Positions 1,640 through 16,119 of a stretch of 35,940 bases of DNA are shown one piece after another (the stretch's first letter is position 1; the number at the start of each line of letters is the position of its first letter). Source of the stretch: Marinoscillum sp. (GTDB lineage: Bacteria; Bacteroidota; Bacteroidia; Cytophagales; Cyclobacteriaceae). The stretch spans positions 1 to 35,940 of the forward strand of contig JAMWZA010000041.1 in NCBI GenBank assembly GCA_024305105.1. Reading direction: 5' to 3'. Both the position numbers and the translations under genes were made by a program. The notes under the pieces were generated by a model. That model had not been told where the DNA came from, searched no databases, and saw nothing but the letters and a program-made list of their open reading frames with translations.

Positions 1640-1661
1640 GAGACGGCATTCGTGCCGTCTC
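1640..1661 (+). terminator. Hairpin terminator after the sigma operon
   Basis: The arms GAGACGGCA and TGCCGTCTC are perfect over 9 bp and close on a TTCG tetraloop. TTGTTT follows on the plus strand. The hairpin lies 22 bp after the stop of the membrane protein and only 5 bp beyond the stop of the convergent TonB-receptor gene. It may therefore also protect the 3' end of the long minus-strand operon, although no T-run follows on that strand. Confidence 0.75.
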
Positions 1662-1665
1662 TTGT

Positions 1666-3876
1666 TTACCACTCTACCCGATAAGCCAGTATAGGAATCA
1701 ATCCTAGTTGGTTTTGTACTTCCCATTGGTCTTTGAAGCTATCATAATACTGATAAGCGAAATTCTCGATATTGGCCACATTCTGAAGGTCCAGGGCGAT
1801 AGACGTTGTACGGTTTTCATGGTAACGCTTCCATACCACTCGCAGGTCAAATCGGAGATAAGCTCGTTGATCATAAAAATCAGCGGGCAATACCACCAAT
1901 TGAAAGGAGTTGAAAGCCGAACTCAAATAAGGCCGAAACCCACCTTGATACATTCCTCTGAAATCTAAAGACAAACGCCTATCCTTAGCGTCATTAGACA
2001 CATCCCATTCCTTGCCAGTGCTTAAAGTCAAGCTATACTGGGTATCGTAGTAGTTTTGTACGTCATCCACCTGTGCAGTAAACCACGAAGCTCCCAGATT
2101 GAGATAAGCATTACCAGAGAAATCCTTTTGAAGTTGGGTGGAAACGCCACCAGTAAATGCCTGCTCCTTGTCTGTTGACGTCAAAGAATTCACTTCGGGG
2201 AAATAGTAGTAAAACAACTCTGTATGTAGATTCCAGTTCTGGCTAATCAAATCATGAGCAATCGTTCCCCGATAGCTGTTGATTAAATCATACTGAGCGG
2301 ATAATGGTGAAAACGCAATTTCACCATAGCCCGCGTTGAAGTAATAATTGTAAGGATTCAGGAGCATCGAATAAATGCCAGCTTCGAGTGAAATTACATT
2401 TTTCTCCTCTAAATCGAGGCTCATTCCCAAACGTGGCTCTACCGATTGGTCTCCACTTGTCAAGGCAGCGGAGACTCCAAGGTATCCATTTAATCCCTTG
2501 CCCATTTTGCTTGAAAACTCTAAATACGGCCTGGTTAGTGAATTAGTGATTTCGTCAAAATCAGGGTTTCGTGTTGCACCAAATTCTTTCAGCCGATAAG
2601 TGTAGAAATTCTGCATGATACCGACCTTCACTTCACCACTACCTGCTCTGGAAACATTCTCCATTTTCATACTCAGAATGCTTTGTTCACTATCAATGTT
2701 CTGCTGGTAAGATTCATCATCCGAATCCGTATAGACCGTTTCATCTCGTTCACTTATAGAAGTACTAAAGACTGCTCCCAAACTGAATTTTCCTCGATCA
2801 TAGCCCGTTTCCCAGTTCAAACCAGCTACCGCAGTTTGGTTGTCATAATAAATATCCTTCCGGTCCTTTTCCACTTCCGACTCCTCAAATGGCTTGTGCT
2901 CAAAATCATTGTAACTCAATCCTCCAACTCCGAAAACCTTTAGCTTTGATCGATCGCCTGTTGGTGTGGTTACATTGAATGACAGGTCCTGAAAACCAAT
3001 GCTTTCTCCTCCAAAGTCAACACCCATACCAGCTAGTAAACCAGTGAATGAGTATCGGTAATTAACCGCATAAGTGGCCGGACTTCCTTGCTGGAATGGT
3101 CCTTCAGCCATAAAGTCAAACCCAATCAATGAAGCCTGTGCGGTATACTGCCGCTCCTGATTCGTTCCTTCCCGGAGGTTCATATTAAAAATACCTCCCA
3201 CGCTGTTACCGTTTTCGGTACCGAACGTGCTGTATAGAAACTCCGATTGATCCAGCATCTGTGCACTGAGCATGTTCACTCCTCCTCCGGTTGCTGTAGG
3301 CTGATCCAGAAAAGTTCCTGCATTGGATAAGTGATTGGGGTTGACAATTTCTGCTCCTTCCAGCTTCCACACATTGTAGGCTGGTGACAGTCCACGCACA
3401 GAGATGGCATTGTTTTGATCATTGGATACAGCGACATCTGGAGAACTGACAATCAACCGTGCAGGATCGTAATACGTAGCAGCAATCCGATTGATTTTCT
3501 CCTCGGTAATACTAATGCGACCAGGATTTATCAAAGGTCTTGGAGCACTTACCACCACTTCGTCAAGATCACTAAAACTCCTTTCGAGAAAAATGTCTTG
3601 TTCAGTGATTTTACCTGCTTTCAACCACACATCTTCCACCAACACTGGCTGATAGCCCACATAGGTAACGACCAGACTGATGCGGCCTGGAGTTAAACCT
3701 GAGAAAGTATACCGACCATTCTGATTGGTAGTGGTGCCCGTATTGGATTTGTGCACACTGATAGAGGCTCCTACCAGTGGCTCATTATTCAACTGATCAT
3801 AAACGCTCCCCGTGAGCGTTTGTGCTTCCAACATCACTGTGCCGGCAATTGCCAGCACCCCAATCCAATACCTCAT
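1666..3876 (-). CDS. TonB-dependent outer-membrane receptor with CarboxypepD_reg domain
   Basis: The 736-aa product has a signal peptide (1-18), then a CarboxypepD_reg-like beta-sandwich (about 19-100; GSVYDQLNNEPLVGASISV, GRYTFSGL, VGYQPV). A plug domain follows (about 104-235; DLDEVVVSAPRP, NAISVRGLSP, GGGVNM), then a beta-barrel ending in an aromatic residue (RVEW). It is shorter than SusC (about 1000 aa) and no SusD partner lies nearby, so it is a stand-alone receptor and not half of a Sus pair. It is the last gene of the minus-strand operon, 6 bp after the exported TIM-barrel gene, so it most likely brings the operon's substrate, or a cofactor, across the outer membrane. The ligand is not predictable. 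Confidence 0.88.
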   Translation of the reverse strand: MRYWIGVLAIAGTVMLEAQTLTGSVYDQLNNEPLVGASISVHKSNTGTTTNQNGRYTFSGLTPGRISLVVTYVGYQPVLVEDVWLKAGKITEQDIFLERSFSDLDEVVVSAPRPLINPGRISITEEKINRIAATYYDPARLIVSSPDVAVSNDQNNAISVRGLSPAYNVWKLEGAEIVNPNHLSNAGTFLDQPTATGGGVNMLSAQMLDQSEFLYSTFGTENGNSVGGIFNMNLREGTNQERQYTAQASLIGFDFMAEGPFQQGSPATYAVNYRYSFTGLLAGMGVDFGGESIGFQDLSFNVTTPTGDRSKLKVFGVGGLSYNDFEHKPFEESEVEKDRKDIYYDNQTAVAGLNWETGYDRGKFSLGAVFSTSISERDETVYTDSDDESYQQNIDSEQSILSMKMENVSRAGSGEVKVGIMQNFYTYRLKEFGATRNPDFDEITNSLTRPYLEFSSKMGKGLNGYLGVSAALTSGDQSVEPRLGMSLDLEEKNVISLEAGIYSMLLNPYNYYFNAGYGEIAFSPLSAQYDLINSYRGTIAHDLISQNWNLHTELFYYYFPEVNSLTSTDKEQAFTGGVSTQLQKDFSGNAYLNLGASWFTAQVDDVQNYYDTQYSLTLSTGKEWDVSNDAKDRRLSLDFRGMYQGGFRPYLSSAFNSFQLVVLPADFYDQRAYLRFDLRVVWKRYHENRTTSIALDLQNVANIENFAYQYYDSFKDQWEVQNQLGLIPILAYRVEW

Positions 3877-3882
3877 TTTGAT

Positions 3883-4767
3883 TTATGCTAAAATTTTCTC
3901 TGTTAGATTCTTATAGGAGATTTCGATGCTCTTCAATGGATCTTCAGACTGATCCTGCTCCACGAAAAAGTGCTGCATTCCTGAAGTTTCTTTCGCGGCA
4001 AAAATCGACTTGTAGTCGATTGTTCCTTCACCAACCTCTGCAAAACCTTGCTCAGGAGTATCTGCCATGTCTTTCACATGCCATAGCGGCACCCTGTTTT
4101 CAAACCTTTTAAACTGCTTAACCGCATCTTTCCCTGCCTTGTTAACCCAGTAAAGGTCTAATTCAAACTGTACCGAATCAGCATCTGTTTCAGAAGCAAG
4201 AATATCCATTCCGGTCACACCATCTCCTAAATCAAGAAACTCAAAATCATGGTTGTGATAGCATACCTGAATGCCTACCTGATTGGCAGCTGCCGCAGCG
4301 TTACTTAGAGTTTCGGCCACACGTTTGTAGTCATCAGCATTTCTTAGTTCTTCAGGTAGCCATGGCCACACAGCATATTTCTGCCCTACGATGTTCATGT
4401 ACTCCAGAGCTGCTTCCCAGTTATCACTGAATATCGGCGGATTGATATGTCCACTGATAAATTTCAACCCTAAATCCTTACAGATTTGATCCATTTCTGT
4501 AGCATTCAGGCCAAACACCGTATTGCCATCAAACCCAAATGGTTCAATTTTCTTGTACCCAATCCTAGCCACTTTTTCCAAGGTTCCTTTAGGGTCAGCC
4601 GCCATTTGTTCTCTAAGAGTGTACAGGCCAACTCCTATTTCAGGCTGAGCAGTAGCAACAGCCTGTGCCGCTTCTTTAGAGCCTTTGGTCACACAAGAAG
4701 GCATGATCATGACGGCAGCCGAAGCTACTGCAGAGGTCTTTAAAAATTTTCTTCGATCGTTTTTCAT
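3883..4767 (-). CDS. Exported sugar phosphate isomerase/epimerase-like TIM-barrel protein (Tat signal)
   Basis: The N-terminus carries a twin-arginine motif (R5-R6-K-F-L-K) and a hydrophobic stretch ending at MPSC, so it may be a Tat-exported lipoprotein anchored at Cys25. Residues 43-294 form the AP-endonuclease-2/xylose-isomerase-like barrel. Likely metal and catalytic residues are E75, H171/H173 in CYHNHDFEF, D204 in FELDLYW, H230 in HVKDMAD and E270 in FFVEQD. In the published 3-keto-glycoside pathway a member of this fold hydrates the 3-keto-2-hydroxy-glucal formed by the lyase. A periplasmic version of that step fits the exported lyase encoded here, but it is inference. The start overlaps the preceding stop in ATGA (4764-4767), indicating coupled translation. 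Confidence 0.82.
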   Translation of the reverse strand: MKNDRRKFLKTSAVASAAVMIMPSCVTKGSKEAAQAVATAQPEIGVGLYTLREQMAADPKGTLEKVARIGYKKIEPFGFDGNTVFGLNATEMDQICKDLGLKFISGHINPPIFSDNWEAALEYMNIVGQKYAVWPWLPEELRNADDYKRVAETLSNAAAAANQVGIQVCYHNHDFEFLDLGDGVTGMDILASETDADSVQFELDLYWVNKAGKDAVKQFKRFENRVPLWHVKDMADTPEQGFAEVGEGTIDYKSIFAAKETSGMQHFFVEQDQSEDPLKSIEISYKNLTEKILA

Positions 4768-7367
4768 AATGCATCAGGTTTAGGTAAGAATTCAAAATTG
4801 GTGAGGGTGATTAATTCATTCTTTTCGTTTGGATTGGAGAAAACAAAAAAGATGGAGGACACTCCCTCAGTAGGTTTTATTTCAATTCGCTTGGTGGTTC
4901 CAGAATTTTCGTCTGGGTAGATACGAGCACTTCCGATTTCCTGACCATCAGAACTACCCAGTCTAATGCTGACATCAGTTCCTCTTAAATTTCTACGATA
5001 CGCCAGTTTAATGGCAGCCAAATCCGTGAGATCAATATCCTCGAAGGAAACCCAGGAACCATTAAATATGCTATTAATTACTCCTCCCCGTGCTTGAATT
5101 TCATAAGACTCATCAAATTGGTCTGCTGGAATTCGATTGTAACGCAACCATACATCACCAAACGCTTTAATTGGTTTCAAGGACCCTTTGCCTTGATCTT
5201 CATAAGAAGCCGACAACAAATATTTCCCACCATCCTCTGTAGTCTTGTATTTACCAGCCAATGGCAACTTAGCAGAGGCACCAAGTGACATAATGTATTC
5301 GACTATCTTCTGTGCATCTTGCGTGCTTAGGTCTGGGTGAGCTGACATTGCTTGCTCACCCCATACACCTCCACCACCACTGATGATTTTTCTGGATAAA
5401 TAGTTTACCGCGTTGCGATCCGTTCGGTATCGATTGGCAACCTGCGTGTATGATGGTCCAATGGATGGTTCATTCACTTTGTGACATGATTTACAATCCA
5501 TAGACTCAATGATCGTAAGTCCATCACTTACCGGACTTTGATGACCCAGAGCTTCGGCCATATCCGTGCTTTGATAATGTGCGATATCAAATGCTATATT
5601 ATCCTGATCAATTCCTACCGCCGATAGATCATCTTCCAAATCGGTAACCTGCACGTCATACGTTACCGTGCGGCCATCCCAGAAAAAACTGCTGTTACCA
5701 GCTACTTCTACAGAGACAGTTGGAGGTTCATTTCCTACTTCAATGACATACTGCTCCCGAATGGTATTTCTACCATCAGACAAGAACAACTCAGGATAAT
5801 AAACACCATCTTCCGTGAATGTGTAGCTTACCACCGAATCGGTACGCTCTTCTCCATTGATTAGCCATTTAAACTTTAGTTCATCCTGATCATAGTCCTC
5901 AGACCCTGAGGCATCAAACACCACTTCTAAAGGTGAAGAGCCTTTCATCCTGGAAAGACTGGATTTCAGTACTGGAGGTCGATTTCCTTTGATGTAGTTA
6001 ATTCTGGAAAGTCGTGCATTTTCGTTTTGGGTAAACCAACCTGTACCATACTCGATCATGTAGAGTTGCCCATCCTGTCCAAACTCCATGTCAATTACAT
6101 TGTTGAATTCCGTGTTTGGCATAAAAGGGTACCAATCCGTCGGATTTCCTTGTTCGTCAAGCTCCAGAAAGTATATGAATCCACGCATCCAATCGTAATA
6201 AATCACACGACCATCCAGATAAGAAGGAAACTTGTCGTAACCTTCATAATCGCCGCTGTAATACACAGGTCCGGCCATGGCATTTCTACCGCCATTCTTC
6301 ACCTGAGGGAATACCTCAAAGCGTGCATATGGGTAGTAAATCTTTGCTGGATTGGCTGGAGGGAGCTCTCGCAATCCTGTATTGTTTGGCGAGTTATTTA
6401 TTGGAGCCACTGCGTCGTAAGATTCTGCTCCAGAAGCCTTTGCGAAATCCCACTCATTATAGGCGAAGTTTTTACCAACGAACAGAGGCCATCCGAAGTA
6501 GCCGGGTTGTGTAGCGACATTAAATTCATCATAACCTCTTGGCCCTCTGCCCTCCTGGTCCGTTCCTGCATCAGGTCCTACATCTCCCCAAAAAACCCAA
6601 CCTCTTTTACTGTCAATAGAGATACGGTATGGATTTCGACATCCCATCACGTAAATCTCAGGCCTTGTTTTCGGATCATCATCTACAAAAAGATTGCCTT
6701 CCGGAATGGAATAGGTACCATCTGGTTCTGGCTTGATCCGTAAAATCTTACCTCTCAGATCATTTGTATTAGAAGATGATCGTTGTGCATCCCAAGCCTC
6801 TCTACCCGGACGCTCGTCTGATGGTGAGTATCCATTCGATGCAAACGGATTGGTATTGTCACCGGTAGACAAATACAACAAACCATCTCCTCCAAACTGG
6901 ATGGAACCACCCGTATGGCAGCACTCGTCTCGCTGTACAGGCACCTCCAGGACTACCACCTCATTTCTAAGTCCACCCGGGGTATACGTGAATCTGGAAA
7001 GTCTATTGACATCCAAATCACCCACTGGAGAATAATAGAAATAAATCCAATCATTCTGCTCAAAACCAGGGTCCAGCGACATCCCCATCAACCCATCTTC
7101 ATTGACATGATAAACCGGTATGGAATCATAAGTAGACAGCTCATCTGTTTCGAGATTAAAAAGTTTTATTGCTCCTCTTCTTTGTGTGAAGAGTATTTTA
7201 CTTTTTGGCAATACGGCCAACTCAGTAGGTTCATACAAATTAGAAGCAAATACTTCTTTGATAAACCTGGTTTCCTCTGGAGCTTTCGCAACTGCTTCCT
7301 CTTCATGTCCTGTACTGCACCCAAACCCAATTAAGCCCACAAGTACACCTAATGCTAACCTTTTCAC
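4764..7367 (-). CDS. Lipoprotein: PQQ-type sugar dehydrogenase-like propeller + PKD + cytochrome c + carbohydrate-binding-like domain
   Basis: This 867-aa protein begins with a lipoprotein-type signal (Cys17). A glucose/sorbosone dehydrogenase-like propeller spans about 35-455, with NEDGLMGMSLDP, HTGGSIQFGGDGLLYLSTGD and GCRNPYRI, the last being the usual GHRNP site with H replaced by C. A PKD domain follows at about 460-545 and an Ig-like stretch at about 547-620. A class I cytochrome c domain has CKSCH at 625-629 and a probable Met ligand in GEQAMSAHPDL. The C-terminal 130 residues look like a CBM6-type beta-sandwich. The likely role is extracytoplasmic oxidation of a carbohydrate, with electrons passed to the fused heme. 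Translation starts at GTG, one base after the upstream stop. Whether PQQ is bound is unknown; no pqq genes are in the window. Confidence 0.85.
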   Translation of the reverse strand: MKRLALGVLVGLIGFGCSTGHEEEAVAKAPEETRFIKEVFASNLYEPTELAVLPKSKILFTQRRGAIKLFNLETDELSTYDSIPVYHVNEDGLMGMSLDPGFEQNDWIYFYYSPVGDLDVNRLSRFTYTPGGLRNEVVVLEVPVQRDECCHTGGSIQFGGDGLLYLSTGDNTNPFASNGYSPSDERPGREAWDAQRSSSNTNDLRGKILRIKPEPDGTYSIPEGNLFVDDDPKTRPEIYVMGCRNPYRISIDSKRGWVFWGDVGPDAGTDQEGRGPRGYDEFNVATQPGYFGWPLFVGKNFAYNEWDFAKASGAESYDAVAPINNSPNNTGLRELPPANPAKIYYPYARFEVFPQVKNGGRNAMAGPVYYSGDYEGYDKFPSYLDGRVIYYDWMRGFIYFLELDEQGNPTDWYPFMPNTEFNNVIDMEFGQDGQLYMIEYGTGWFTQNENARLSRINYIKGNRPPVLKSSLSRMKGSSPLEVVFDASGSEDYDQDELKFKWLINGEERTDSVVSYTFTEDGVYYPELFLSDGRNTIREQYVIEVGNEPPTVSVEVAGNSSFFWDGRTVTYDVQVTDLEDDLSAVGIDQDNIAFDIAHYQSTDMAEALGHQSPVSDGLTIIESMDCKSCHKVNEPSIGPSYTQVANRYRTDRNAVNYLSRKIISGGGGVWGEQAMSAHPDLSTQDAQKIVEYIMSLGASAKLPLAGKYKTTEDGGKYLLSASYEDQGKGSLKPIKAFGDVWLRYNRIPADQFDESYEIQARGGVINSIFNGSWVSFEDIDLTDLAAIKLAYRRNLRGTDVSIRLGSSDGQEIGSARIYPDENSGTTKRIEIKPTEGVSSIFFVFSNPNEKNELITLTNFEFLPKPDAL

Positions 7368-7368
7368 T

Positions 7369-10300
7369 TTATAATTCTCTTATTTTAATATTTCTAAACC
7401 AGACGCTATTTCCATGATCCTGTAAAGTAATATGTCCTTGTTTTGCCTTTCCGAAATCAGGCATTTCGCTGAACTTACTCCCAGCCACCATGGCCTTCCA
7501 GGTGTCGTCACCTAACTCATACTCGACTACTTTATAGCCATTGAGCCAGTGTTCCACATGATTATCTTTTACTTTTAAAATGACACTATTCCATTCATTG
7601 GCTGGATTTACTGTGACGAATTTCGTTTCAATCATGTCATACAAATCTCCTGACCGATGCTTTTCGATTTGTCCATCAGGATGTCGCTCATTATCGAGTA
7701 TTTGATTTTCCATTCCCGTCAACCATGGGTATTCATATTGTTCATCCTCCACTACATGGTAAATGATCCCGCTGTTGCCACCTGATGAAATCTTCCAATC
7801 CAGTAACAACTCATAGTTTTCATAGGGTTTGTCCGTGATGACCACATCACCGCCAGCACCAGAGGCCTCTGGGTTAAAGGTCAATGTGCCGTTTTGAGCT
7901 TGCCATTTACCGCTGAGTGTTTCTCGGTTATAATTGCGTAAGCCAGTTGTTGATTGACCATCAAACAGCAACTTCCATCCTGCATCCTTTTCCGCTTTGG
8001 TTAGCTGATTGTGAGGTATATCAGTATTAGTCAGCTGCACTGGATCATTGGCTGGTATATTGGTCAGTGTATACCAGGCCTCAGTGGTCCATAGTTCGTG
8101 ATCACTAGCACTTACAAAAGGACGCTTTACGCGGAAATACACGACGTGCTTTTCTTTAAGACCATCCAACTGGAATGAAACTGTTTTTCGATCTTCAGAT
8201 AGTGAAAAAGCAGTTGGATTCATGGTAGTCAAACCAAGCTTCGGTCCGCCATACTCTTTGGTTGGTTTGAAGTAGAATTGTTCTATTTGAAAATTGTCAG
8301 GAGAAATGACCTGTCCTTCCTTGATGGGCTCCGTAAATTCGATCTCAAATCCATCTGATTTGGCCATCACCTTTAGCATTTCGAAAGTGGATTTACCATT
8401 GTAGACCATTCGCTGAAGTCCATAGTTGAGCTTACCTGTCTGTCCCCAGTTACCGGAAACACCAATACCACCTACGAGCAACGAGCCATCAGGAGCCCAC
8501 GCCAGTCGATTTACACCTGCTTCTATACCCTGAGAAAACCGGAACACAACCCCCTGATAGTTGTCATTGACCTCCTCTACAAACACGCGCTTCACTCCTC
8601 CATGTGTCACCTCACAATGGATCATCTGTCCAGCATACGGTCCCTTGTCCAGGTAGAGTGGTGTACTCGGTGAGTTCCCGATTTCATCCTGAGGAAGCCA
8701 AACCACCGGTTCGTCCTGTACGAGACCTTCCGTTCCTTCAAAGTCCACAGATCGAGAACCATACCAGGCACCTTTTCTGACATGATTAATTTTTGAGGCC
8801 GGTAACCAATCTCCTTGATTATCAGCCACGAAAATTTCTCCATCTACTCCAATTCCAATGCCATTTGGAGTGCGTAATCCGGAGGCAATGAACTCCACTT
8901 CTCCGGTTTCTTTGGAAATCTTCGCCAACTTGCCGCGATCTTTCGGTTGTGGATTAGCAGAAGCCCCACCGGGTAAAATATCGGTAGCTAAGGCCCCATA
9001 GAAGTAGCCTTCTTTGTAAACCAGTCCAAATGAAAATTCATGAAAATTCGAAGACACTGTCCAATCATCAGTCACGGTCAAATACTCATCAATGATCATG
9101 TCGCCATCAGTATCCACCAACTTTGTCAGCTCTTGCTTTTGTAAAACGTAAATTTCTCCGTCCACTACTTTTATTCCCAAGGGTTCTGCTAAACCTGTTG
9201 CGATGCGCTTTACAGTAATCTCTTCCGGGTTTTCTGAGCGGAAATTCTCCACCAGATATACCGGCCCTAAAGAATCCCACGTACAAACCAACATCTGGTC
9301 TTCATTCAAGAAATCAATTCCTCCTACACGTGGTTTGAAGTCATCAGGTCTTGCCTGAAATAGATCGAACGAAGGGTGTATACCCGCCAACCACTGCTGG
9401 TCACCTGGAATGGATTTTACCAACTTACCCGCATCGATGTATGGTTTAACTTCTTCATAGTCTTCCGGTGAAACCGAGAGCATCGACTCTGGTACCACCT
9501 CAAAGTTTCCTAAGTCGGTATTGAACCATTGGAAAGAAACCACCCCTCCAGATGCTCCATTGTAATAATGAATCTCCAGATCATGCTTACCCGCTTTTAG
9601 ATAAACTTCACCGTCGCGGGCTATGGTGCCATGTGGGCCACCATTATCAATAATTTCTTCACCATTCACATATACTTTACTGCCGTCATCAGAAACAATT
9701 CGGAAACTGTAGCTAGCGGTTTTCGAAATATTCAATGATCCTTTAGCAATCATGGCTACATTTTCGCGGCGGTCTCCCAATGCCGAACTACTTCGAATGT
9801 GTAATTGTGGAATGACGGTTCCTTTGAATGGAGCTTCTCCTTTAAGTACTTTGAAGTTGGGTGAATCTCCTGAATACAAGTACAGATAAGCTGCCAGCCC
9901 CGAAGACTCTTTAGTAATCGTTGTAAAGCTATCGGAAAAACCAGGAGTTACCGTTTTCACTCCCAGGTGCCAGGCATTTGCATCGGAGTCTCCCTCATCG
10001 TCATCCAAACTTAGAATATACCGGATCATGCTTTCAGCATCCTCAGTCGCCAAATCTGCATGAGGTGTCATCAATGCCTCTCCCCATACACCACTACCTC
10101 CTTTGATAACCTTTCCAGCAAGCATAGCTACTGTTTCGTCGCTATCGCTGTATTTCCGTGCCACTGCCACATACGCAGGCCCTACGGTTTTCACCTCTTC
10201 ATTGTGACATGATTTACAATCGCTGCGCTCAATCAACTGAGCACCTACCGGAACGACAAGTTCCTCTGTTTCATCCTCAGGAGCTTTACCAGCCACCATA

Positions 10301-11001
10301 TCAAATCCTTGATGGTAAAACGCCTTCAGCTCGGTTGGTCCATCGCTCTTTAGTAAGAGTTTTCCAGACACTTTCATCACAGAGCCACCCGGATATTCTA
10401 CAGACTCACTCGAAGTAATCTGAAAGTCAGCATTGGTTGTAAGATCCCGTTCATTGAGCAATGAACCAATGGTCGTATTGAGACCTACGGTATAATCTCC
10501 GGCATTTTCAAGTTCAAACTTTCTAAACAGTCCATTTTGACTACCTCGTTTTACCGCTTCAGGAGTTTCAAAAACCTTAATTTTCTGGCCTTCTACTATC
10601 AACTCGTACATCAATTGCACCTGACCATCTACCAGGCGATGGCCCTTGTACTGGATTTCAGGTTTGGTGACAACATCGCCTTTCACCACAAACCACTCAT
10701 TGTCTTCTTCACTTTCATCGGTGTAGTAGGCATAGCCTTTACTCGTGGGCTGGGGTCCATGAACTGTGGTATACACTGCTCCATCAAAGTTCACTCCACC
10801 TTTCCAGGCTTTATAAAGTGAGGCTCTCTGGGCATCATACGAGACCCAAACATCCTCATTAAGTGCTGCTGTGACCATCCTCGGTTTTAGGTCCATCACA
10901 GACCGAAACACCCACGCTTCTATAGGACGCTCCACTGTCTTTTCTTCTTTACAGGCTATCAGAGATAATGCAGCCAAACCAAATACCAAATACTTCTTCA
11001 T
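7369..11001 (-). CDS. Giant lipoprotein: cytochrome c + PA14 + beta-propeller + DUF1080 (3-keto-glycoside lyase/hydrolase family)
   Basis: The 1210-aa product starts with a clear lipobox (LIAC, Cys17) followed by K-E-E, which resembles the Bacteroidota surface-export signal K-(D/E)2. Domains in order: an N-terminal beta-rich module (about 25-255); cytochrome c with CKSCH at 262-266 and probable Met ligand in GEALMTPHADL; PA14 (about 395-505; IVSDDGSKVYVNGE, HDLEIHYYNG); an NHL/sugar-dehydrogenase-like propeller (about 545-865; GLRTPNGIGIGVDGEIFVADNQ, split here only for readability); an Ig-like linker (about 865-985); and DUF1080 (about 1005-1210; WKLLFDGQ, SGGNSGIIYHV, SGDLYDMI, HITLQDHGNSVWFRNIKIR). 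DUF1080 proteins are reported to cleave 3-keto-glycosides. An oxidase-like propeller, an electron carrier and a lyase in one chain suggest coupled oxidation and cleavage (inference). Confidence 0.87.
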   Translation of the reverse strand: MKKYLVFGLAALSLIACKEEKTVERPIEAWVFRSVMDLKPRMVTAALNEDVWVSYDAQRASLYKAWKGGVNFDGAVYTTVHGPQPTSKGYAYYTDESEEDNEWFVVKGDVVTKPEIQYKGHRLVDGQVQLMYELIVEGQKIKVFETPEAVKRGSQNGLFRKFELENAGDYTVGLNTTIGSLLNERDLTTNADFQITSSESVEYPGGSVMKVSGKLLLKSDGPTELKAFYHQGFDMVAGKAPEDETEELVVPVGAQLIERSDCKSCHNEEVKTVGPAYVAVARKYSDSDETVAMLAGKVIKGGSGVWGEALMTPHADLATEDAESMIRYILSLDDDEGDSDANAWHLGVKTVTPGFSDSFTTITKESSGLAAYLYLYSGDSPNFKVLKGEAPFKGTVIPQLHIRSSSALGDRRENVAMIAKGSLNISKTASYSFRIVSDDGSKVYVNGEEIIDNGGPHGTIARDGEVYLKAGKHDLEIHYYNGASGGVVSFQWFNTDLGNFEVVPESMLSVSPEDYEEVKPYIDAGKLVKSIPGDQQWLAGIHPSFDLFQARPDDFKPRVGGIDFLNEDQMLVCTWDSLGPVYLVENFRSENPEEITVKRIATGLAEPLGIKVVDGEIYVLQKQELTKLVDTDGDMIIDEYLTVTDDWTVSSNFHEFSFGLVYKEGYFYGALATDILPGGASANPQPKDRGKLAKISKETGEVEFIASGLRTPNGIGIGVDGEIFVADNQGDWLPASKINHVRKGAWYGSRSVDFEGTEGLVQDEPVVWLPQDEIGNSPSTPLYLDKGPYAGQMIHCEVTHGGVKRVFVEEVNDNYQGVVFRFSQGIEAGVNRLAWAPDGSLLVGGIGVSGNWGQTGKLNYGLQRMVYNGKSTFEMLKVMAKSDGFEIEFTEPIKEGQVISPDNFQIEQFYFKPTKEYGGPKLGLTTMNPTAFSLSEDRKTVSFQLDGLKEKHVVYFRVKRPFVSASDHELWTTEAWYTLTNIPANDPVQLTNTDIPHNQLTKAEKDAGWKLLFDGQSTTGLRNYNRETLSGKWQAQNGTLTFNPEASGAGGDVVITDKPYENYELLLDWKISSGGNSGIIYHVVEDEQYEYPWLTGMENQILDNERHPDGQIEKHRSGDLYDMIETKFVTVNPANEWNSVILKVKDNHVEHWLNGYKVVEYELGDDTWKAMVAGSKFSEMPDFGKAKQGHITLQDHGNSVWFRNIKIREL

Positions 11002-11027
11002 ACTATATAATACTTCTACTTAAATCT

Positions 11028-12080
11028 TTATAAACCTAATATTCTTCTATTGGCTTCATCATCCGGTTTCGCTCCAGCAAAATCATCAAATGCTTTCTCT
11101 GTTACTTCAATGATGTGATTTTGGATAAAAGGTGCTCCCTCTGCAGCTCCTTGCTGTGGAGATTTAATGCAACACTCCCACTCAAGCACTGCCCATCCAT
11201 CAAAATCGTATTGGCTTAGTTTGGTGAAAATACCGCTAAAATCTACCTGACCATCACCCAGTGATCTGAATCTACCAGGGCGATCCACCCAACTCTCATA
11301 TCCACCATAAACACCCGCTTTACCTGTTGGGTTAAATTCGGCGTCCTTTACATGAAACATCCGAATGTTTTCGTGATAGAAGTCAATGAACTGCAGGTAA
11401 TCCATCTGCTGCAATAGGAAATGCGATGGATCATAAAGGATTTTAGCCGAGCTATGCTTGCCAGTGGCTTCCCAAAATCGTTCGTAAGTAATGCCATCGT
11501 GCAAGTCCTCTCCAGGATGCAACTCATAACAGATCTCCACTCCATTGTCTTTGGCATGATCCAAAATCGGCATCCATTTCTTAGCCAATTCTTTGAAGCC
11601 AAGTTCTACCAATCCTGCCGGACGTTGTGGCCATGGATAAACAGTGTGCCAAAGCAACGCTCCTGAAAAGCTCGCCATCACATCGATTCCAAGGTTCTTA
11701 CTCGCAGTTGCAGCTGACTTAACCTGATCTATGGCCCACTCATTACGCGCCTTAGGGTTGCCTTTTACAGAATCAGGTGCGAAAGCATCAAACATGCTAT
11801 CGTATGCAGGATTAACGGCTACTAATTGACCTTGAAGATGAGTGGCCAGTTCTGTGATCTCCAAACCGGCTTCATTCACGATGCCCTTAATCTCATCAGC
11901 ATAAGTCTTGCTATCAGCAGCTTTCTTAATATCGATCAGTCGACCATCCCATGCCGGAATCTGTACGCCTTTATACCCCAGACCTTTGGCCCATTCACAT
12001 ATATTCTTCAGGTTATCAAATGGAGCCTTATCGTCTGCAAACTGCGCCAAAAAAATCGCTGGTCCTTTGATTGTTTTCAT
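11028..12080 (-). CDS. Cytoplasmic sugar phosphate isomerase/epimerase-like TIM-barrel protein
   Basis: This 350-aa protein has no signal peptide. It shows the AP-endonuclease-2/xylose-isomerase-like barrel with candidate metal ligands E186 and H188 (CYELHPGED), D217 and H220 (YDPSHF), H243 and D246 (FHVKDAE) and E300/E302 (VLEWEC). Residues about 250-275 (GVYGGYESWVDRPGRF) form an insertion typical of the larger members that accompany Gfo/Idh/MocA oxidoreductases. In this operon it is a good candidate for an intracellular hydratase, epimerase or isomerase step acting on 3-keto sugars. It differs strongly in length and location from the Tat-exported barrel at 3883-4767, so the two probably act in different compartments. 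The substrate is not known. Confidence 0.83.
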   Translation of the reverse strand: MKTIKGPAIFLAQFADDKAPFDNLKNICEWAKGLGYKGVQIPAWDGRLIDIKKAADSKTYADEIKGIVNEAGLEITELATHLQGQLVAVNPAYDSMFDAFAPDSVKGNPKARNEWAIDQVKSAATASKNLGIDVMASFSGALLWHTVYPWPQRPAGLVELGFKELAKKWMPILDHAKDNGVEICYELHPGEDLHDGITYERFWEATGKHSSAKILYDPSHFLLQQMDYLQFIDFYHENIRMFHVKDAEFNPTGKAGVYGGYESWVDRPGRFRSLGDGQVDFSGIFTKLSQYDFDGWAVLEWECCIKSPQQGAAEGAPFIQNHIIEVTEKAFDDFAGAKPDDEANRRILGL

Positions 12081-12085
12081 ATTAT

Positions 12086-12130
12086 AAGTTTTAGGTTCTA
12101 AGTTTTAGTTTTAGGTTCCAGGTTTAGGTT
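12086..12130. repeat. Degenerate word repeats bordering the S23-type gene
   Basis: GTTTTAGGTTC occurs exactly twice (12088-12098 and 12108-12118, period 20), and AAGTTTTAG occurs twice (12086-12094 and 12100-12108). The repeats run into the last codons of the four-helix-bundle gene. On the other side of that gene, 12553-12580 read on the minus strand (TAAGGTTTTGAGTTTAAAG...) resembles the plus-strand word series (TAAGTTTTAGGTTCTAAG...), so the two borders form an imperfect inverted pair around the gene. Confidence 0.6.
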
Positions 12131-12552
12131 TGAAAGTTTCCATAGGTCGATTCAGGTTCTTCAACCTTGAACTTGCTTCCACGAAAATCTGACTTGCGTA
12201 GATAATTTGAGAAAGATATTAGCATTCCTCTCAACTCTTTTATGCTCTTTTCAAATTGTTCCATTCGAACTTCATCAAGGTAAGACCTGTCACAGCCTCT
12301 TATCAACTGACTTTCAACTTCACTCAGTGAACCAAGTGAAAAGCCCAGAAAGTTGATAAATTCCTTATTACCGCCTCTTCCAAAACCTTCAGCAATATTG
12401 CCCATCACAGACCCTGCTGATCTATTCAACTGGTCTTTTAGTGCATAATCTTTTATATCATCCCTTTCAAACACTTCAGAGAAGATTTGTTTATTTAAGA
12501 CTCTTGATACTTGCCAAACTTTCAATTCGTTAAAATCAGTTATTGTGGCCAT
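12124..12552 (-). CDS. Four-helix-bundle protein of the S23 / 23S rRNA intervening-sequence family
   Basis: The 142-aa product matches the S23-type family (Pfam PF05635): FNELKVWQVSRVLNKQIF at the start, LKDQLNRSAGSVMGNIAEGFGRGGNKEFINFL in the middle (split in two helices), then SLGSLSEVESQLIRGCDRSYL and a last helix ending near KELRGMLISFSNYL. The basic, aromatic pattern is typical of the family, which was first found inside 23S rRNA and is related to Avd of diversity-generating retroelements. The ATG at 12552 is preferred over an in-frame TTG at 12573, because the extra seven codons are repeat sequence. It sits inside an otherwise metabolic operon and is flanked by repeats, so it looks like an inserted passenger. 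Its function is unknown. Confidence 0.85.
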   Translation of the reverse strand: MATITDFNELKVWQVSRVLNKQIFSEVFERDDIKDYALKDQLNRSAGSVMGNIAEGFGRGGNKEFINFLGFSLGSLSEVESQLIRGCDRSYLDEVRMEQFEKSIKELRGMLISFSNYLRKSDFRGSKFKVEEPESTYGNFQT

Positions 12553-12577
12553 GGATTTCAACTTTAAACTCAAAACC

Positions 12578-13744
12578 TTAATGACTCACTTTAGTCCAGG
12601 TATTGCCATTTTTGGTTGAGGCCACCACAGCTTCAATCATCGCCATTCCCATCACTCCGTCTTCCACTCCTGGAAAATCAAGTTTGGGATTTACTTTCTC
12701 TTTAAAAAGGTGACCTCTCAAAGCATGTGCGAAATTTCTATAGATATTGGCGAAAGCTTCCAGATATCCCTCTGGATGACCTGATGGCGTCCGTGTGTGG
12801 AGCATGGCCTCTTCTGAAAGGTAACCACCCCGATCGGCTCCAGTTCTGAAAATCCGATCCGGGTTGCCATGGTCTTTAACGATAAGGGTGTTGAGGTCTC
12901 TTTGTGACCATTCGAGTCCGCCTTTATCACCATAAACTCTGAACTTCAGATCGTTTTCATCTCCATTGGCGACTTGTGAAGCGGACAATACTCCATTGGC
13001 TCCATTCTCAAAATGCAGTAAAACGTTCGCATCATCATCCAAGGGCCTGCCCTCGATTGTTGCTCTAATTTCGGAAAGTACCTCAGTCACCTTTAAGCCA
13101 GAGACATACTCAACCATGTTAATGGCATGAGTTCCAATATCTCCAAAGCAATTGCTGATTCCTGCCCGCGCTGGATCTGCGCGCCATGACGCCTGCTTCT
13201 GATCAGTATCTTCAACTTTTGTCGTCAACCACCCTTGCGGATACTCGACCATCACTTTATGTATTTGCCCAATCTCGCTATTCCTGACCATAGCCATCGC
13301 TTGTTTAACCATCGGATAGCCGGTGTATGTATACGTGACGGCAAATGGAAGACCTGTTTCTTTCACCTTATCTCTAAGCTCAAGTGCCTGCTCCAGAGTA
13401 AATGCTAGTGGCTTATCAATAATCACTGGAAAACCATTTTCCAATGCTAACAAGGCAGGTTCGAAATGCATCACATTGGGAGTCACAATGGATACAAAGT
13501 CCATACGCTCTCCTTCTGGCAACTCTTTTTCTGCAGTAATCATTTCCTGAAAACTGCCGTAGCATCTGTTTTCAGGTAGGAACAAATCCTTGCCTGAATC
13601 TCTGGATCGCTGAGGGTCAGAACTGAAAGCACCACAGACCAACTCGATTTGACCATCAAGATTGGCTGCTATGCGGTGTACTCCACCTATAAAGGCCCCT
13701 TGACCACCACCAATCATGCCCATCCGTAGTTTGCGATGACTCAT
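12578..13744 (-). CDS. Gfo/Idh/MocA family oxidoreductase (first of a tandem pair by coordinate)
   Basis: The 388-aa protein has an N-terminal Rossmann fold with a glycine-rich loop (GMIGGGQGAFIGGVHR, residues 9-24), a DKP motif at 110-112 where most members have EKP, and the C-terminal catalytic sequence GDIGTHAIN with D202 and H206. The family uses NAD(P) to oxidise or reduce a sugar hydroxyl or keto group. No signal peptide is present, so it acts in the cytoplasm. It is encoded 2 bp after its paralog (13747-14883) and aligns with it almost without gaps over the first 210 residues. In the 3-keto-glycoside context it is a candidate for C3 oxidation of glycosides or for reduction of 3-keto-glucose. 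The direction cannot be assigned from sequence. Confidence 0.86.
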   Translation of the reverse strand: MSHRKLRMGMIGGGQGAFIGGVHRIAANLDGQIELVCGAFSSDPQRSRDSGKDLFLPENRCYGSFQEMITAEKELPEGERMDFVSIVTPNVMHFEPALLALENGFPVIIDKPLAFTLEQALELRDKVKETGLPFAVTYTYTGYPMVKQAMAMVRNSEIGQIHKVMVEYPQGWLTTKVEDTDQKQASWRADPARAGISNCFGDIGTHAINMVEYVSGLKVTEVLSEIRATIEGRPLDDDANVLLHFENGANGVLSASQVANGDENDLKFRVYGDKGGLEWSQRDLNTLIVKDHGNPDRIFRTGADRGGYLSEEAMLHTRTPSGHPEGYLEAFANIYRNFAHALRGHLFKEKVNPKLDFPGVEDGVMGMAMIEAVVASTKNGNTWTKVSH

Positions 13745-13746
13745 TT

Positions 13747-14883
13747 CTATATGTTTTCCCAGGTTTGACCATTTCTACTCGACAAGAGTACCGCTTCAAT
13801 AAATTTCATTCCACGTACTCCGTCTTCTACGTTTGGAAAAGCTCCATCTCGGTATGCTTCGCCTCTAATCGCTTGAGCTGTACCCGCATAGATATTGCCC
13901 ATCGCATCAAAAAGCCCTTCAGGGTGTCCCGGAGCGATTTTCGTACTTTCCATAGCAAAATCAGATGTATACGGATTTCCTGGCTTCAGTATCTGACGTG
14001 GTTCTCCTTCTTTGAGATGAGTAAGGAACGTTGGGTGCTCTTGCTCCCAAAAAAGCCCTCCTTTATCTCCGTAAACGGCTATTTTGATGTTGTTTTCTTC
14101 GCCAGTAGCTATCTGACTAGCACAGATAACTCCGCGCACTCCTTCTTTGATGCGAATCAATGTGGTGCCATCCACGTCCAAAGGATTGTCTTCATACAGC
14201 GTATTGACATCCGCTAATACCTTTTCCACCTTTAATCCAGTGGTGTATTCGATTAGGTTAAAAGCATGGACACCAATATCGCCATAGCAGCAACTCTGTC
14301 CGGATTTAGCGGGATCAAGTCTCCAGATGCTGGAACGTTTTTCCTTATCATGAATAAATGGGTTAATCCAACCTTGATAGTACTGTGCATCTACTTTCTG
14401 GACCTTTCCGATAACTCCTTCGGCTATCATGGTCTTCATTTGACGTACCATCGGGTAGCCCGTGTAGGTATGGGTCAGACAAAAAACTACTCCATGTTCT
14501 TTTATCAATGCTTCCAACTCAACCGCCTCGGAAGCCTTCATGGTTATCGGCTTTTCACAAATCACATGAAACCCTGCTTTGATTAACTGAGCAGCCATTG
14601 GGTAATGTAGGAAATTAGGTGTCAGAATAGACACAACCTCTATTCGCTCATGAGCCGGTAAAGCAGACTCCTTCTCGATCAATTCATCAATATTGGAATA
14701 GGTTCTGGAAGTATCCAGTTCAAGTTTCTCTGCGAATTCCATGCTGGCCTTATGGTCCACATCAAAAACACCACCTACCAGTTGATAACGCTCACCCATG
14801 TATGCAGCTATGCGATGCACCGGGCCGATAAATGAATTGGCTCCTCCACCGATTAATCCTAGTCTTATTTTTCCTTTACTCAT
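13747..14883 (-). CDS. Gfo/Idh/MocA family oxidoreductase (second of the tandem pair)
   Basis: The 378-aa protein has the Rossmann loop LGLIGGGANSFIGPVHR (residues 8-24), the canonical EKP motif at 110-112 and GDIGVHAFN with D202 and H206. These catalytic positions have exactly the same numbers as in the paralog at 12578-13744, so the two arose by tandem duplication with very few early indels. No export signal is present. It starts 9 bp after the MFS transporter stop and ends 2 bp before its paralog, clearly within one transcript. Its expected chemistry is NAD(P)-dependent oxidation or reduction at a sugar carbon. The pair may form a heteromer or serve opposite ends of the pathway (inference). 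Confidence 0.86.
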   Translation of the reverse strand: MSKGKIRLGLIGGGANSFIGPVHRIAAYMGERYQLVGGVFDVDHKASMEFAEKLELDTSRTYSNIDELIEKESALPAHERIEVVSILTPNFLHYPMAAQLIKAGFHVICEKPITMKASEAVELEALIKEHGVVFCLTHTYTGYPMVRQMKTMIAEGVIGKVQKVDAQYYQGWINPFIHDKEKRSSIWRLDPAKSGQSCCYGDIGVHAFNLIEYTTGLKVEKVLADVNTLYEDNPLDVDGTTLIRIKEGVRGVICASQIATGEENNIKIAVYGDKGGLFWEQEHPTFLTHLKEGEPRQILKPGNPYTSDFAMESTKIAPGHPEGLFDAMGNIYAGTAQAIRGEAYRDGAFPNVEDGVRGMKFIEAVLLSSRNGQTWENI

Positions 14884-14892
14884 TCTATTAAT

Positions 14893-16119
14893 CTATTGCT
14901 TTTCGTATGAAATATTTTCTTTCTTAAATGCTACAGCAAACAAGATAAAAACCAAAACAGCGAAACCTGCAGGGAACAACCAGATGCTTTGCCATGCATG
15001 TCCGCCATCAATTACGTAATAATCCGTAATCTGACCAGCCACCCAGAATCCAATCAACATACCCACGCCATAGGTGGCCAATGTGATCATTCCCTGTGCT
15101 GAACTTTTAAACTTATCTCCCGCTTTGGAATCGGTATAAATCTGACCCGAAACAAAGAAAAAATCGTAGCATATACCATGCAGGGCAATGCCCAGTAACA
15201 GCATGTACACAGAACTATCGGCATTACCAAAAGCGAACAATCCATAGCGCAATGCCCAGGCCAGCATCCCGAACAACAACGTCTTTTTGATGCCATATTT
15301 GGTGAGGAATACGGGTAATAAAAGCATGAATAGAACTTCGGATACCTGCCCTATCGTCATTTTCCCTGTAGGATTAGTTACCCCGATTTCGGCTAAAAAC
15401 GGATTAGCATTTTGATAATAAAATGCCAGCGGAATACAGATTAGAATAGATGAAACGAAGAATACGGCGAAATTGCGATTTTTTAGAAGCTTCAACGCAT
15501 CCAGCCCTAGAATATCACTCACGGTTAACTTCTCTCCTTTGGCTACCGATGGAGGTGTTTTTGGTAATGTAAAACTGTAAATCCCAAATAGCAAGGATGC
15601 AATTGCGGTCATCAAAAACGTGTTTTTGAGCATCCCATTAGCGATTGCCTCCTGTGCGTCCCAGGAAAAAAGATAGCTTATCACCAGTCCTGCACCGATC
15701 CAACCTATGGTTCCGAATACTCTGATTTTTGAAAACTCTTTGGATGGGTCTGTCATTTGTCTAAATGAGACCGAGTTGACCAATGCCAAAGTAGGCATGT
15801 AAGCGATCATGTATGCCAAAACATAGGGGTAAAAATTGGTAAACTCCGTTGACACATGCATCTGGTACATAAGCACTGCCCCTAGCAGATGCAAAACACC
15901 TAAAATTCTTTCCGCATTGAAATAGCGATCCGCGATAAGTCCAACAATGAAAGGTGCAATAATGGCTCCCCAGGATTGGGTAGAATAAGCCATGGCCGTT
16001 TCGCCACCTGTTGCACTTAGGTTATTGGCCATAAATGTACCCAAAGTAACAAACCAGCCACCCCATATAAAAAATTGGAGGAACATCATGGCGCTTAGTC
16101 GAACGTGTATTTGCTTCAC
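14893..16119 (-). CDS. MFS transporter, nucleoside:H+ symporter-like subfamily
   Basis: The 408-aa protein has about twelve hydrophobic segments and the family-typical opening RLSAMMFLQFFIWGGWFVTLG. GLIADRYFNAERIL follows segment 2 and FSKIRVFGTIGWIGAGL is in the middle. It resembles the NupG/XapB-like nucleoside:proton symporter group, whose Bacteroidota members are often found with Gfo/Idh/MocA genes. The start is GTG at 16119; an in-frame TAG lies six codons upstream and no ATG is available between. It is the first gene of the minus-strand operon and probably imports the sugar, 3-keto sugar or glycoside produced by the exported enzymes. The substrate is unknown. Confidence 0.85.
   Translation of the reverse strand: MKQIHVRLSAMMFLQFFIWGGWFVTLGTFMANNLSATGGETAMAYSTQSWGAIIAPFIVGLIADRYFNAERILGVLHLLGAVLMYQMHVSTEFTNFYPYVLAYMIAYMPTLALVNSVSFRQMTDPSKEFSKIRVFGTIGWIGAGLVISYLFSWDAQEAIANGMLKNTFLMTAIASLLFGIYSFTLPKTPPSVAKGEKLTVSDILGLDALKLLKNRNFAVFFVSSILICIPLAFYYQNANPFLAEIGVTNPTGKMTIGQVSEVLFMLLLPVFLTKYGIKKTLLFGMLAWALRYGLFAFGNADSSVYMLLLGIALHGICYDFFFVSGQIYTDSKAGDKFKSSAQGMITLATYGVGMLIGFWVAGQITDYYVIDGGHAWQSIWLFPAGFAVLVFILFAVAFKKENISYEKQ

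Follow-up and report, generated by a model that had tools for sequence, protein, structure and literature searches.

The window, the whole 35,940-nucleotide stretch of Marinoscillum sp. DNA analysed here, holds nine contiguous minus-strand genes between positions 1666 and 16119, separated in succession by 9, 2, 4, 43, 26, 1, -4 and 6 bp. The genes, and the features within and beside them, are given below; export signals were judged by eye from the sequence, supplemented by TAT models.

16442..17656, plus strand: divergent MFS permease (PF07690), syntenic, beyond the nine-gene span
14893..16119, minus strand: MFS permease of the Nuc_H_symport (nucleoside H+ symporter) family (PF03825, 414 bits)
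13747..14883, minus strand: Gfo1, Gfo/Idh/MocA oxidoreductase (Pfam), signal peptide absent by eye
12578..13744, minus strand: Gfo2, Gfo/Idh/MocA oxidoreductase (Pfam), signal peptide absent by eye
12124..12573, minus strand: 23S_rRNA_IVP / four-helix bundle protein (PF05635, 99.6 bits), start codon uncertain
11028..12080, minus strand: TIMc, AP_endonuc_2 TIM barrel, predicted cytosolic 2-hydroxy-3-keto-glucal hydratase (Pfam; phmmer to 8ro4)
7369..11001, minus strand: BIG, 1210-aa fusion lipoprotein with N-terminal beta domain, cytochrome c, PA14, propeller and DUF1080 (Pfam, AlphaFold, Foldseek)
10006..10245, minus strand: BIG cytochrome c domain, residues 253-332 (Pfam; C262, C265, H266, M311)
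8335..9327, minus strand: BIG propeller, about residues 559-889, boundaries approximate (AlphaFold, Foldseek)
7378..7980, minus strand: BIG DUF1080 / 3keto-disac_hyd domain, residues 1008-1208 (PF06439, 161.6 bits; Foldseek)
4764..7367, minus strand: GSDHcyt, 867-aa lipoprotein with GSDH propeller, PKD, cytochrome c and CBM6 (Pfam; lipobox-like GFGC by eye)
3883..4767, minus strand: TIMx, AP_endonuc_2 TIM barrel with twin-arginine signal, predicted AtOGE-like 3-keto-glycoside eliminase (TAT models; alignment to 8bvk)
1666..3876, minus strand: TonB-dependent receptor-like outer-membrane protein with CarboxypepD_reg domain (Pfam, NCBIfam)
1640..1661, no strand assigned: terminator-like hairpin immediately beyond the operon's final gene (9-pair stem, 6 G-C)

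A preliminary description of this DNA had recognised the closely spaced nine-gene run, and Pfam agrees with its MFS permease, two Gfo/Idh/MocA proteins, two TIM barrels and two cytochrome c proteins, as with the lack of any glycoside hydrolase family among the nine genes. Two entries required correction: DUF1080, there given a gene of its own, is part of BIG, and the 23S_rRNA_IVP gene had been overlooked. The proposed TonB receptor stands as a CarboxypepD_reg outer-membrane protein, but it scores 55.9 bits against the SusC model, far under the cut-off of 368, and Pfam finds SusD in none of the nine genes; a SusCD polysaccharide utilisation locus is therefore rejected. Export signals are borne by BIG, GSDHcyt and TIMx and, by eye, by none of Gfo1, Gfo2 and TIMc. 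A known C3 dehydrogenase is absent from the locus, whether of the LacAB kind (neither GMC nor PF13618 is found by Pfam among the nine genes) or an exported Gfo protein, Gfo1 and Gfo2 being signal-less by eye.

What is new at the locus is a heme fusion, in which a propeller of dehydrogenase fold is carried on one polypeptide with cytochrome c and DUF1080. The exported cytochrome c and the exported DUF1080 both sit on BIG (Pfam; signal by eye), whose residues 14-17 form a lipobox-like LIAC (by eye), and whose C262, C265, H266 and M311 are invariant in 12/12 aligned sequences, the window counted. An AlphaFold model built from 42 of the 80 BIG-locus sequences plus the window, with the first 18 residues left off, reached a mean pLDDT of 85.9 and a pTM of 0.78. 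In Foldseek comparisons its propeller has the fold of the PQQ-type sugar dehydrogenases 2ism (TMt 0.71), 3a9g and 6jt5, and its DUF1080 domain (the present PF06439, 3keto-disac_hyd) matches 3u1x, 8rr2, 9fbe, 8tda and 8v31; by their PDB titles, 8rr2 and 9fbe are 3-keto-glycoside eliminase/hydratases, and 8tda and 8v31 the hydratases BT2 and AL2. The N-terminal domain has no Pfam match, and neither does its separate homologue in L053. This heme-fused protein looks unstudied: no such fusion is described in the titles and abstract openings among the matches listed, a set that largely leaves out subscription papers.

The claim of two sugar-dehydrogenase-like propellers fared unevenly, as GSDHcyt carries one by sequence (GSDH, PF07995, 118 bits, Pfam) and BIG by structure comparison only; the PQQ sugar dehydrogenase propeller fold is nonetheless present in both. 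A GSDHcyt AlphaFold model from seven sequences was poor (mean pLDDT 57.9), hence its Foldseek matches were set aside. PQQ is bound in GSDH proteins by a His, an Arg-Asn, a Lys and an Arg-x-Arg. Aligned to YliI of E. coli, GSDHcyt retains H151, R244 and N245; the Lys is replaced by M394 and the RxR by N423/I425, in a C-terminal part that was aligned by eye and lies beyond the profile match (36-297). One relative, L081, retains the first Arg of RxR. As the site is incomplete, its C-terminal-half residues not being retained in GSDHcyt, we reject membership of the PQQ dehydrogenases. PqqE was above cut-off in 0/59 genomes, but the control set likewise gave 0/14, and bacteria can obtain PQQ by scavenging. 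GSDHcyt homologues occur in 46/98 genomes, the one at L043 having an additional ThuA domain at its N-terminus.

TIMc matches PDB 8ro4, named 2-hydroxy-3-keto-glucal hydratase and presumably AtHYD of Agrobacterium tumefaciens, with a phmmer E of 3.3e-176 over 350 residues, and is thus a predicted 2-hydroxy-3-keto-glycal hydratase; at E 1e-60 it is single-copy in each of 59/98 genomes. TIMx aligns to the eliminase AtOGE (8bvk), one among several matches, and its metal and catalytic residues (H171, H173, E202, D204, H230, E270) are kept in 26/26 sequences. It is predicted to be an AtOGE-like 3-keto-glycoside eliminase, although these residues cannot separate lyase from hydratase with certainty. 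Its TAT signal is barely above the NCBIfam cut-off (17.0 vs 16.7) and barely below that of Pfam (19.9 vs 22.7); RR is found at 24/25 N-termini and KR at one. By homology, then, the locus appears to supply a 3-keto-glycoside eliminase of AtOGE or DUF1080 type. The preliminary description had envisaged an exported lyase and one exported hydratase; DUF1080 and one TIM barrel do bear signals (by eye), but the roles are partly exchanged, the hydratase-like barrel being the cytosolic TIMc and the exported TIMx being AtOGE-like, while solved relatives of DUF1080 are titled either hydratase or eliminase/hydratase. Gfo1, whose nearest solved relative is 3v5n, is a putative 3-keto-sugar reductase or dehydrogenase.

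Because TIMc, TIMx and DUF1080 match solved hydratases and eliminases, the locus resembles a 3-keto-glycoside cluster, as previously suggested, with exported early steps. We propose, with a probability of about 0.5, that it encodes a glycoside oxidation-elimination-hydration-reduction route whose early steps are extracytoplasmic, and in which propeller-heme proteins replace LacAB as oxidant. Glycoside would enter through the outer-membrane receptor and be oxidised by BIG and/or GSDHcyt, most likely at C3, each sending the electrons to the heme c that it carries; elimination by TIMx, by BIG's DUF1080 domain or by both would then cleave the 3-keto-glycoside, after which TIMc would hydrate the product and Gfo1/Gfo2 reduce it to a common hexose. 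The place held in many related clusters by LacA/LacB and a separate cytochrome c lipoprotein would thereby fall to the propeller-heme proteins. We infer all catalytic steps, the C3 position, the electron route and transport; onward flow of electrons to the respiratory chain is suggested by heme c alone. More tentatively, BIG alone may both oxidise and cleave, its propeller acting at C3 with a cofactor that is not canonical PQQ, its fused heme c receiving the electrons and its own DUF1080 eliminating the aglycone or second sugar. A single surface or periplasmic polypeptide could then conceivably replace LacA, LacB, LacC and the 3-keto-glycoside lyase. If true, these proposals would add extracytoplasmic glycoside oxidants of a new class to a widespread non-hydrolytic sugar route, assign a heme-propeller family of Bacteroidota and Gammaproteobacteria its first function, and make oxidation, electron output and bond cleavage testable jointly on one protein. 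The fusion, together with gene swaps between genomes, makes the hypothesis directly testable.

Comparison with relatives brings out the families, the conserved gene neighbourhood and the fusion. Among 58 hydratase loci of relatives, surveyed with the window and with flanks of at most about 10 kb, LacA and/or LacB occur in 17, propeller-heme proteins without LacAB in 13 (14 counting the window), and neither within the fetched stretch in 28, the last figure counting against the proposal; the two never occur together, LacAB being present in 0/14 propeller-type loci. A DUF1080 gene is found in 16/17 LacAB loci, and a separate small cytochrome c lipoprotein gene in 20/58 loci, including 16/17 of the LacAB type. 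The exclusion between LacAB and propeller types (P 0.004; P 0.016 with genus collapsed) amounts to few independent events and is weak evidence only, because the LacAB type forms approximately one clade (1 change, support 69/0) on a hydratase tree from which L202 and L203 were omitted (ORF used too short). A Gfo1 or Gfo2 homologue of at least 45% accompanies 43/58 of these loci, Gfo2 adjoining the hydratase more frequently than Gfo1, and a homologue of either the operon or the divergent MFS permease is present in 32/58.

The BIG loci were the best 80 of 396 relatives, drawn from 579 pattern hits, and all 80 encode DUF1080 in BIG's own open frame, a fusion that partly reflects how loci were selected. 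Counting against the route that we propose, no partner gene lies in the flanks of 35/80, part of them on short contigs, and all nine gammaproteobacterial BIG loci belong to this group. The hydratase is found in 12/12 genomes with a full or near-full BIG (that of G063 is without DUF1080, and that of G050 is cut by the contig; fragments at contig ends of G036 were not counted), against 59/98 overall (P 0.0014; by 8 genera, P 0.012). It adjoins BIG in eight of the twelve and does not in the other four, the latter again counting against the proposal. The parts of BIG are encoded by separate genes in G078 and G093.

The alternative that survives best, although we consider it improbable, is that a distant LacA/LacB, or an exported Gfo of another locus, oxidises C3, while BIG and GSDHcyt, their propellers non-catalytic, serve as scaffolds that bind sugar and accept electrons. 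The window's genome has other extracytoplasmic oxidants, as it holds one LacA/LacB pair at a distant site (C24), and at another (C272) a Gfo-like gene of Tat type behind a double-DUF1080 gene. The acceptor of an FAD glucoside 3-dehydrogenase is a mono-heme cytochrome c, according to PMC9915066, an observation that favours our own proposal as well, and the incomplete PQQ site of GSDHcyt fits this alternative. Against it, LacAB is missing from the 14 propeller-type loci within the flanks surveyed, and the LacB family is missing genome-wide from G040, G052, G064, G078 and G093 (completeness 96-100), all of which have the hydratase and propeller-heme proteins.

It is less probable still that the propeller-heme dehydrogenases act elsewhere, for example on free-sugar C1 or an aglycone alcohol, the 3-keto genes serving a second purpose. 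Characterised enzymes of the GSDH propeller fold do oxidise C1 of aldoses, and CBM6 and PA14 (Pfam) suggest sugar ligands; however, DUF1080 lies in BIG's frame in every kept locus, and the operon encodes TIMc, which resembles a hydratase acting on a 3-keto product. Least probable is a cytosolic, levoglucosan-type chemistry in which the Gfo proteins form an NAD-dependent pair, one for oxidation and one for reduction, while the exported parts merely capture sugars, since DUF1080 and the eliminase-like TIMx, expected on the keto product, bear export signals, even though Gfo1 and Gfo2 are signal-less and weakly levoglucosan dehydrogenase-like (NCBIfam), and G023, G074 and G091 hold the hydratase and Gfo2 with no LacB, near-full BIG or GSDHcyt genome-wide, so that the route can exist without LacB or propeller-heme proteins.

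Returning to the propeller-heme route that we favour, its extracytoplasmic character agrees with the export signals, as the preliminary description proposed. We know of no heme in the BT2157-BT2160 system of Bacteroides thetaiotaomicron or the Alistipes AL system, and LacC of the Caulobacter lactose route is a cytochrome c. An extracytoplasmic 3-keto route as such is not new, having been published already (PMC9007349 and PMC11300592). In the former, a periplasmic LacABC route with DUF1080 (putative signal peptide) is described for lactose in Caulobacter and proposed for Bacteroidetes; oxidation is likewise extracytoplasmic and cleavage is by DUF1080, whereas the window locus lacks LacA/LacB beside DUF1080 and unites cytochrome c, propeller and DUF1080 in one protein. 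In the latter, BT2158 is called a periplasmic glycoside 3-dehydrogenase. Its system has the DUF1080 family in common with the window locus, but takes its dehydrogenase from the Gfo proteins (NCBIfam BT_2158_fam). The GlycDH-AtOGE-AtHYD-Gfo operon of A. tumefaciens has the chemical steps in the same order, an AtOGE homologous to TIMx, a hydratase and a Gfo protein; it differs in its FAD-type dehydrogenase with TAT partner, and in the available main text of PMC10628242 "cytochrome" goes unmentioned and a DUF1080 fusion was not found. The quinohemoprotein pyranose dehydrogenase of Coprinopsis cinerea is likewise a single secreted protein that unites a sugar dehydrogenase domain with a cytochrome and a carbohydrate-binding module, and BIG matches its fold (6jt5, Foldseek), but it has heme b and PQQ and lacks a lyase domain (PMC4332668). 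Planctomycete-specific cytochromes combine heme c with CBM or PA14 and are suspected of a role in carbohydrate metabolism (available part of PMC5615132; TIGR02604); BIG was rejected as a PVC-type heme-binding protein of TIGR02604, far under its cut-off (15.3 bits vs 122.2), and a DUF1080 fusion was not found for them in that part of the source.

The 23S_rRNA_IVP gene is probably a passenger and resembles an insertion: the window, G002 and G004 have it, whereas the same-genus G001 and G005 lack it at the corresponding site. The hairpin at 1640..1661 is by itself no evidence of termination, as the scan gave 14 against 11.8 expected; a promoter scan gave fewer sites than shuffled sequence (22 vs 31.4), and we claim no operator in the divergent intergenic region, which aligned poorly over four sequences, window included. 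The position of the divergent MFS permease is kept in 3/3 same-genus relatives whose contig extends there, and a homologue of the outer-membrane protein follows TIMx in the four same-genus relatives fetched and in L043.

The preliminary description had proposed a nine-gene operon for extracytoplasmic 3-keto-glycoside degradation, and the nine minus-strand genes at 1666-16119 are borne out, with gaps of 9, 2, 4, 43, 26, 1, -4 and 6 bp. Its gene list needs correction in two places: a 23S-IVP four-helix gene had been overlooked, and DUF1080 (PF06439, 3keto-disac_hyd) had been counted as a gene of its own, where Pfam places it within a larger fusion lipoprotein, BIG. Tight spacing and conserved gene order are the evidence for the presumed co-transcription; export signals other than the twin-arginine (TAT) type were judged by eye on the sequences. 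In transcription order, and with Pfam assignments, the cluster comprises:

MFS protein, minus strand: first in transcription order; Nuc_H_symport
Gfo1, minus strand: Gfo/Idh/MocA oxidoreductase
Gfo2, minus strand: Gfo/Idh/MocA oxidoreductase
12124-12573, minus strand: 23S-IVP four-helix protein
TIMc, minus strand: cytosolic TIM barrel, predicted hydratase; AP_endonuc_2
BIG, minus strand: 1210-aa lipoprotein; cytochrome c, PA14, PF06439 and, within the propeller, an NHL match below threshold
GSDHcyt, minus strand: 867-aa lipoprotein; GSDH, cytochrome c, CBM6, with PKD slightly under cut-off
TIMx, minus strand: exported TIM barrel; AP_endonuc_2, with a TAT signal slightly under the Pfam and slightly over the NCBIfam cut-off
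Outer-membrane protein, minus strand: CarboxypepD_reg; last of the nine

We consider it likely, with a probability of about 0.75, that the cluster encodes a putative pathway of this type with exported early steps. TIMc, in which no signal peptide was found by eye, matches PDB 8ro4, named 2-hydroxy-3-keto-glucal hydratase, over its full length (E 3.3e-176). The DUF1080 domain of BIG matches structures titled 3-keto-glycoside eliminase/hydratase (8rr2, 9fbe) and 3-keto-2-hydroxy-glucal hydratase (8tda, 8v31) in Foldseek. TIMx bears a twin-arginine signal, and its six PDB matches include 8bvk, the O-glycoside eliminase AtOGE, for which the available part of the source gives His132, Asp163, His189 and Glu233 as metal ligands and His134 as catalytic base (PMC10628242). 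In the alignment these correspond to H171, D204, H230 and E270, and to H173, of TIMx. Each is kept in 26 of 26 sequences, but such metal and catalytic residues are common in the TIMx superfamily and so cannot separate lyase from hydratase with certainty. Gfo1 and Gfo2, in which inspection by eye found no export signals, weakly resemble levoglucosan dehydrogenase and others, far under the cut-offs (about 107 versus 650 bits).

The cytochrome domains of BIG and GSDHcyt both resemble c551/c552, with CxxCH and Met invariant in 12/12 and 7/7 aligned sequences, respectively. The fold of BIG is confidently predicted (AlphaFold, 43 sequences; mean pLDDT 85.9, pTM 0.78), and in Foldseek its predicted propeller matches two sugar dehydrogenases of PQQ type (2ism, 3a9g) as well as a pyranose dehydrogenase from a fungus (6jt5); profile comparison of this propeller with Escherichia coli YliI was not significant (probability 0.7%). 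Residues 36-297 of GSDHcyt match YliI by profile (probability 98.9%), and GSDHcyt keeps His151 and Arg244-Asn245; in the C-terminal part, compared by eye, it has Met394 where YliI has Lys and Asn423/Ile425 where YliI has Arg-x-Arg, all positions that we take to be PQQ-binding. PqqE was above cut-off in 0/59 genomes, a search without positive control, since the control genomes also gave 0/14. In one genome outside the genus (G040) the GSDHcyt homologue (L043 12715-16077) begins with a ThuA (trehalose utilisation) domain (234 bits), a predicted domain make-up that ties ThuA to heme-propeller sugar proteins.

The fusion in BIG was put in context through TIMc, single-copy in 59 of 98 genomes including that of the window, by comparing 58 further TIMc loci (the surroundings in 51 genomes, plus seven loci from an earlier set). 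Homologues of the known C3 dehydrogenase LacAB lie near 17 (LacA only at L195), with a separate small cytochrome c gene at 16/17 and a DUF1080 gene at 16/17; the small cytochromes found all start like lipoproteins (20/20). BIG or GSDHcyt lies near 13, besides the window, and LacAB was found at none of these 14. TIMx is present at 10/13 propeller and 11/17 LacAB loci, and 28/58 loci carry neither type, five of them with a DUF1080 gene. These counts suggest a frequent set in which LacAB and a cytochrome c lipoprotein accompany DUF1080, hydratase, Gfo2 and MFS; BIG unites the cytochrome c and DUF1080 modules with a dehydrogenase-fold propeller where LacAB is missing from the locus. The modules of BIG are spread over three adjacent genes in G078; G093 holds two together, its nearest DUF1080 match being on a different contig. 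The N-terminal domain of BIG (residues 25-240, window 10282-10929), beta-rich and without Pfam match, has a homologue encoded as a separate gene in both.

Mutual exclusion of the two types gives P 0.004 (0.016 with genus collapsed), although few independent events underlie this value, as on the hydratase tree one change suffices for the LacAB type (branch support 69/0) and at least five are required for the propeller type. Stronger evidence is the absence of any LacB-family protein (E 0.001) from five genomes (G040, G052, G064, G078, G093) with hydratase and propeller-heme proteins. Against the propeller proteins as oxidant stand three genomes with hydratase and neither LacB nor propeller-heme proteins (G023, G074, G091), and the window's own genome, in which a LacAB pair on contig C24 and, on C272, a Tat-type Gfo-like gene following a double-DUF1080 gene mean that other oxidants are at hand. 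We regard the chances that BIG and GSDHcyt act as oxidant as evenly balanced, and it is doubtful that C3 oxidation and cleavage would fall to one and the same polypeptide. The Tat-type gene is weakly like Gfo1 (24%); the double-DUF1080 genes of this genome (C135 37166-38437 and C272 21780-23057; L145, L146) perhaps mark other loci of 3-keto type.

A 3-keto route outside the cytoplasm that uses heme as acceptor is not in itself new: the available portions of the sources propose a periplasmic DUF1080-family 3'-ketolactose hydrolase with LacABC, Bacteroidetes included (PMC9007349), term BT2158 a periplasmic glycoside 3-dehydrogenase (PMC11300592), and note that in Rhizobium radiobacter a mono-heme cytochrome c takes electrons from FAD glucoside 3-dehydrogenase (PMC9915066). 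New, as far as the literature searched shows, is a single protein that carries heme c, a propeller of dehydrogenase fold and DUF1080, at a locus without LacAB.

A search for the same order in relatives found Gfo1-Gfo2-TIMc-BIG-GSDHcyt-TIMx-outer-membrane protein kept in three genomes of the genus (G001, G002, G005), and the remainder of it in G004, whose contig begins within Gfo2; BIG and TIMc are both absent from a further congener, G003. The order is largely kept in G040 (Gfo2-TIMc-BIG-GSDHcyt-TIMx-outer-membrane protein) and G045 (Gfo1-Gfo2-TIMc-BIG-TIMx). In Saprospiraceae it is rearranged (BIG-MFS-Gfo2-TIMc-TIMx at L113, for example), which speaks for a functional bond over mere inheritance of order. 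Among the best 80 of 396 BIG relatives in the genome collection, all 80 have a single open frame of more than 1100 aa reaching into the DUF1080 domain; their flanks hold TIMc at 23, Gfo at 30, MFS at 36, TIMx at 14, the outer-membrane homologue at 12, GSDHcyt at 7 and the four-helix gene at 4, and the available flanks at 35/80 hold no partner gene. Nine of the 80 are gammaproteobacterial (Gilvimarinus, Paraglaciecola, Aliiglaciecola, Cellvibrionaceae), and in 9/9 partner genes are absent from the available flanks; that the complete fusion protein is present there at 46-51% identity (L084, L094, L098, L102, L103, L107, L109, L111, L133) without them suggests transfer.

The four-helix gene is probably a passenger, given its patchy presence (window, G002 and G004, not G001 or G005). 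It lies between Gfo2 and TIMc in the window and likewise in G002 and G004. Two Cyclobacteriaceae MAGs carry at that site a gene of 27-29% identity (L075 8413-8841, L076 8443-8862), pointing either to more than one insertion there or to a long-standing passenger.
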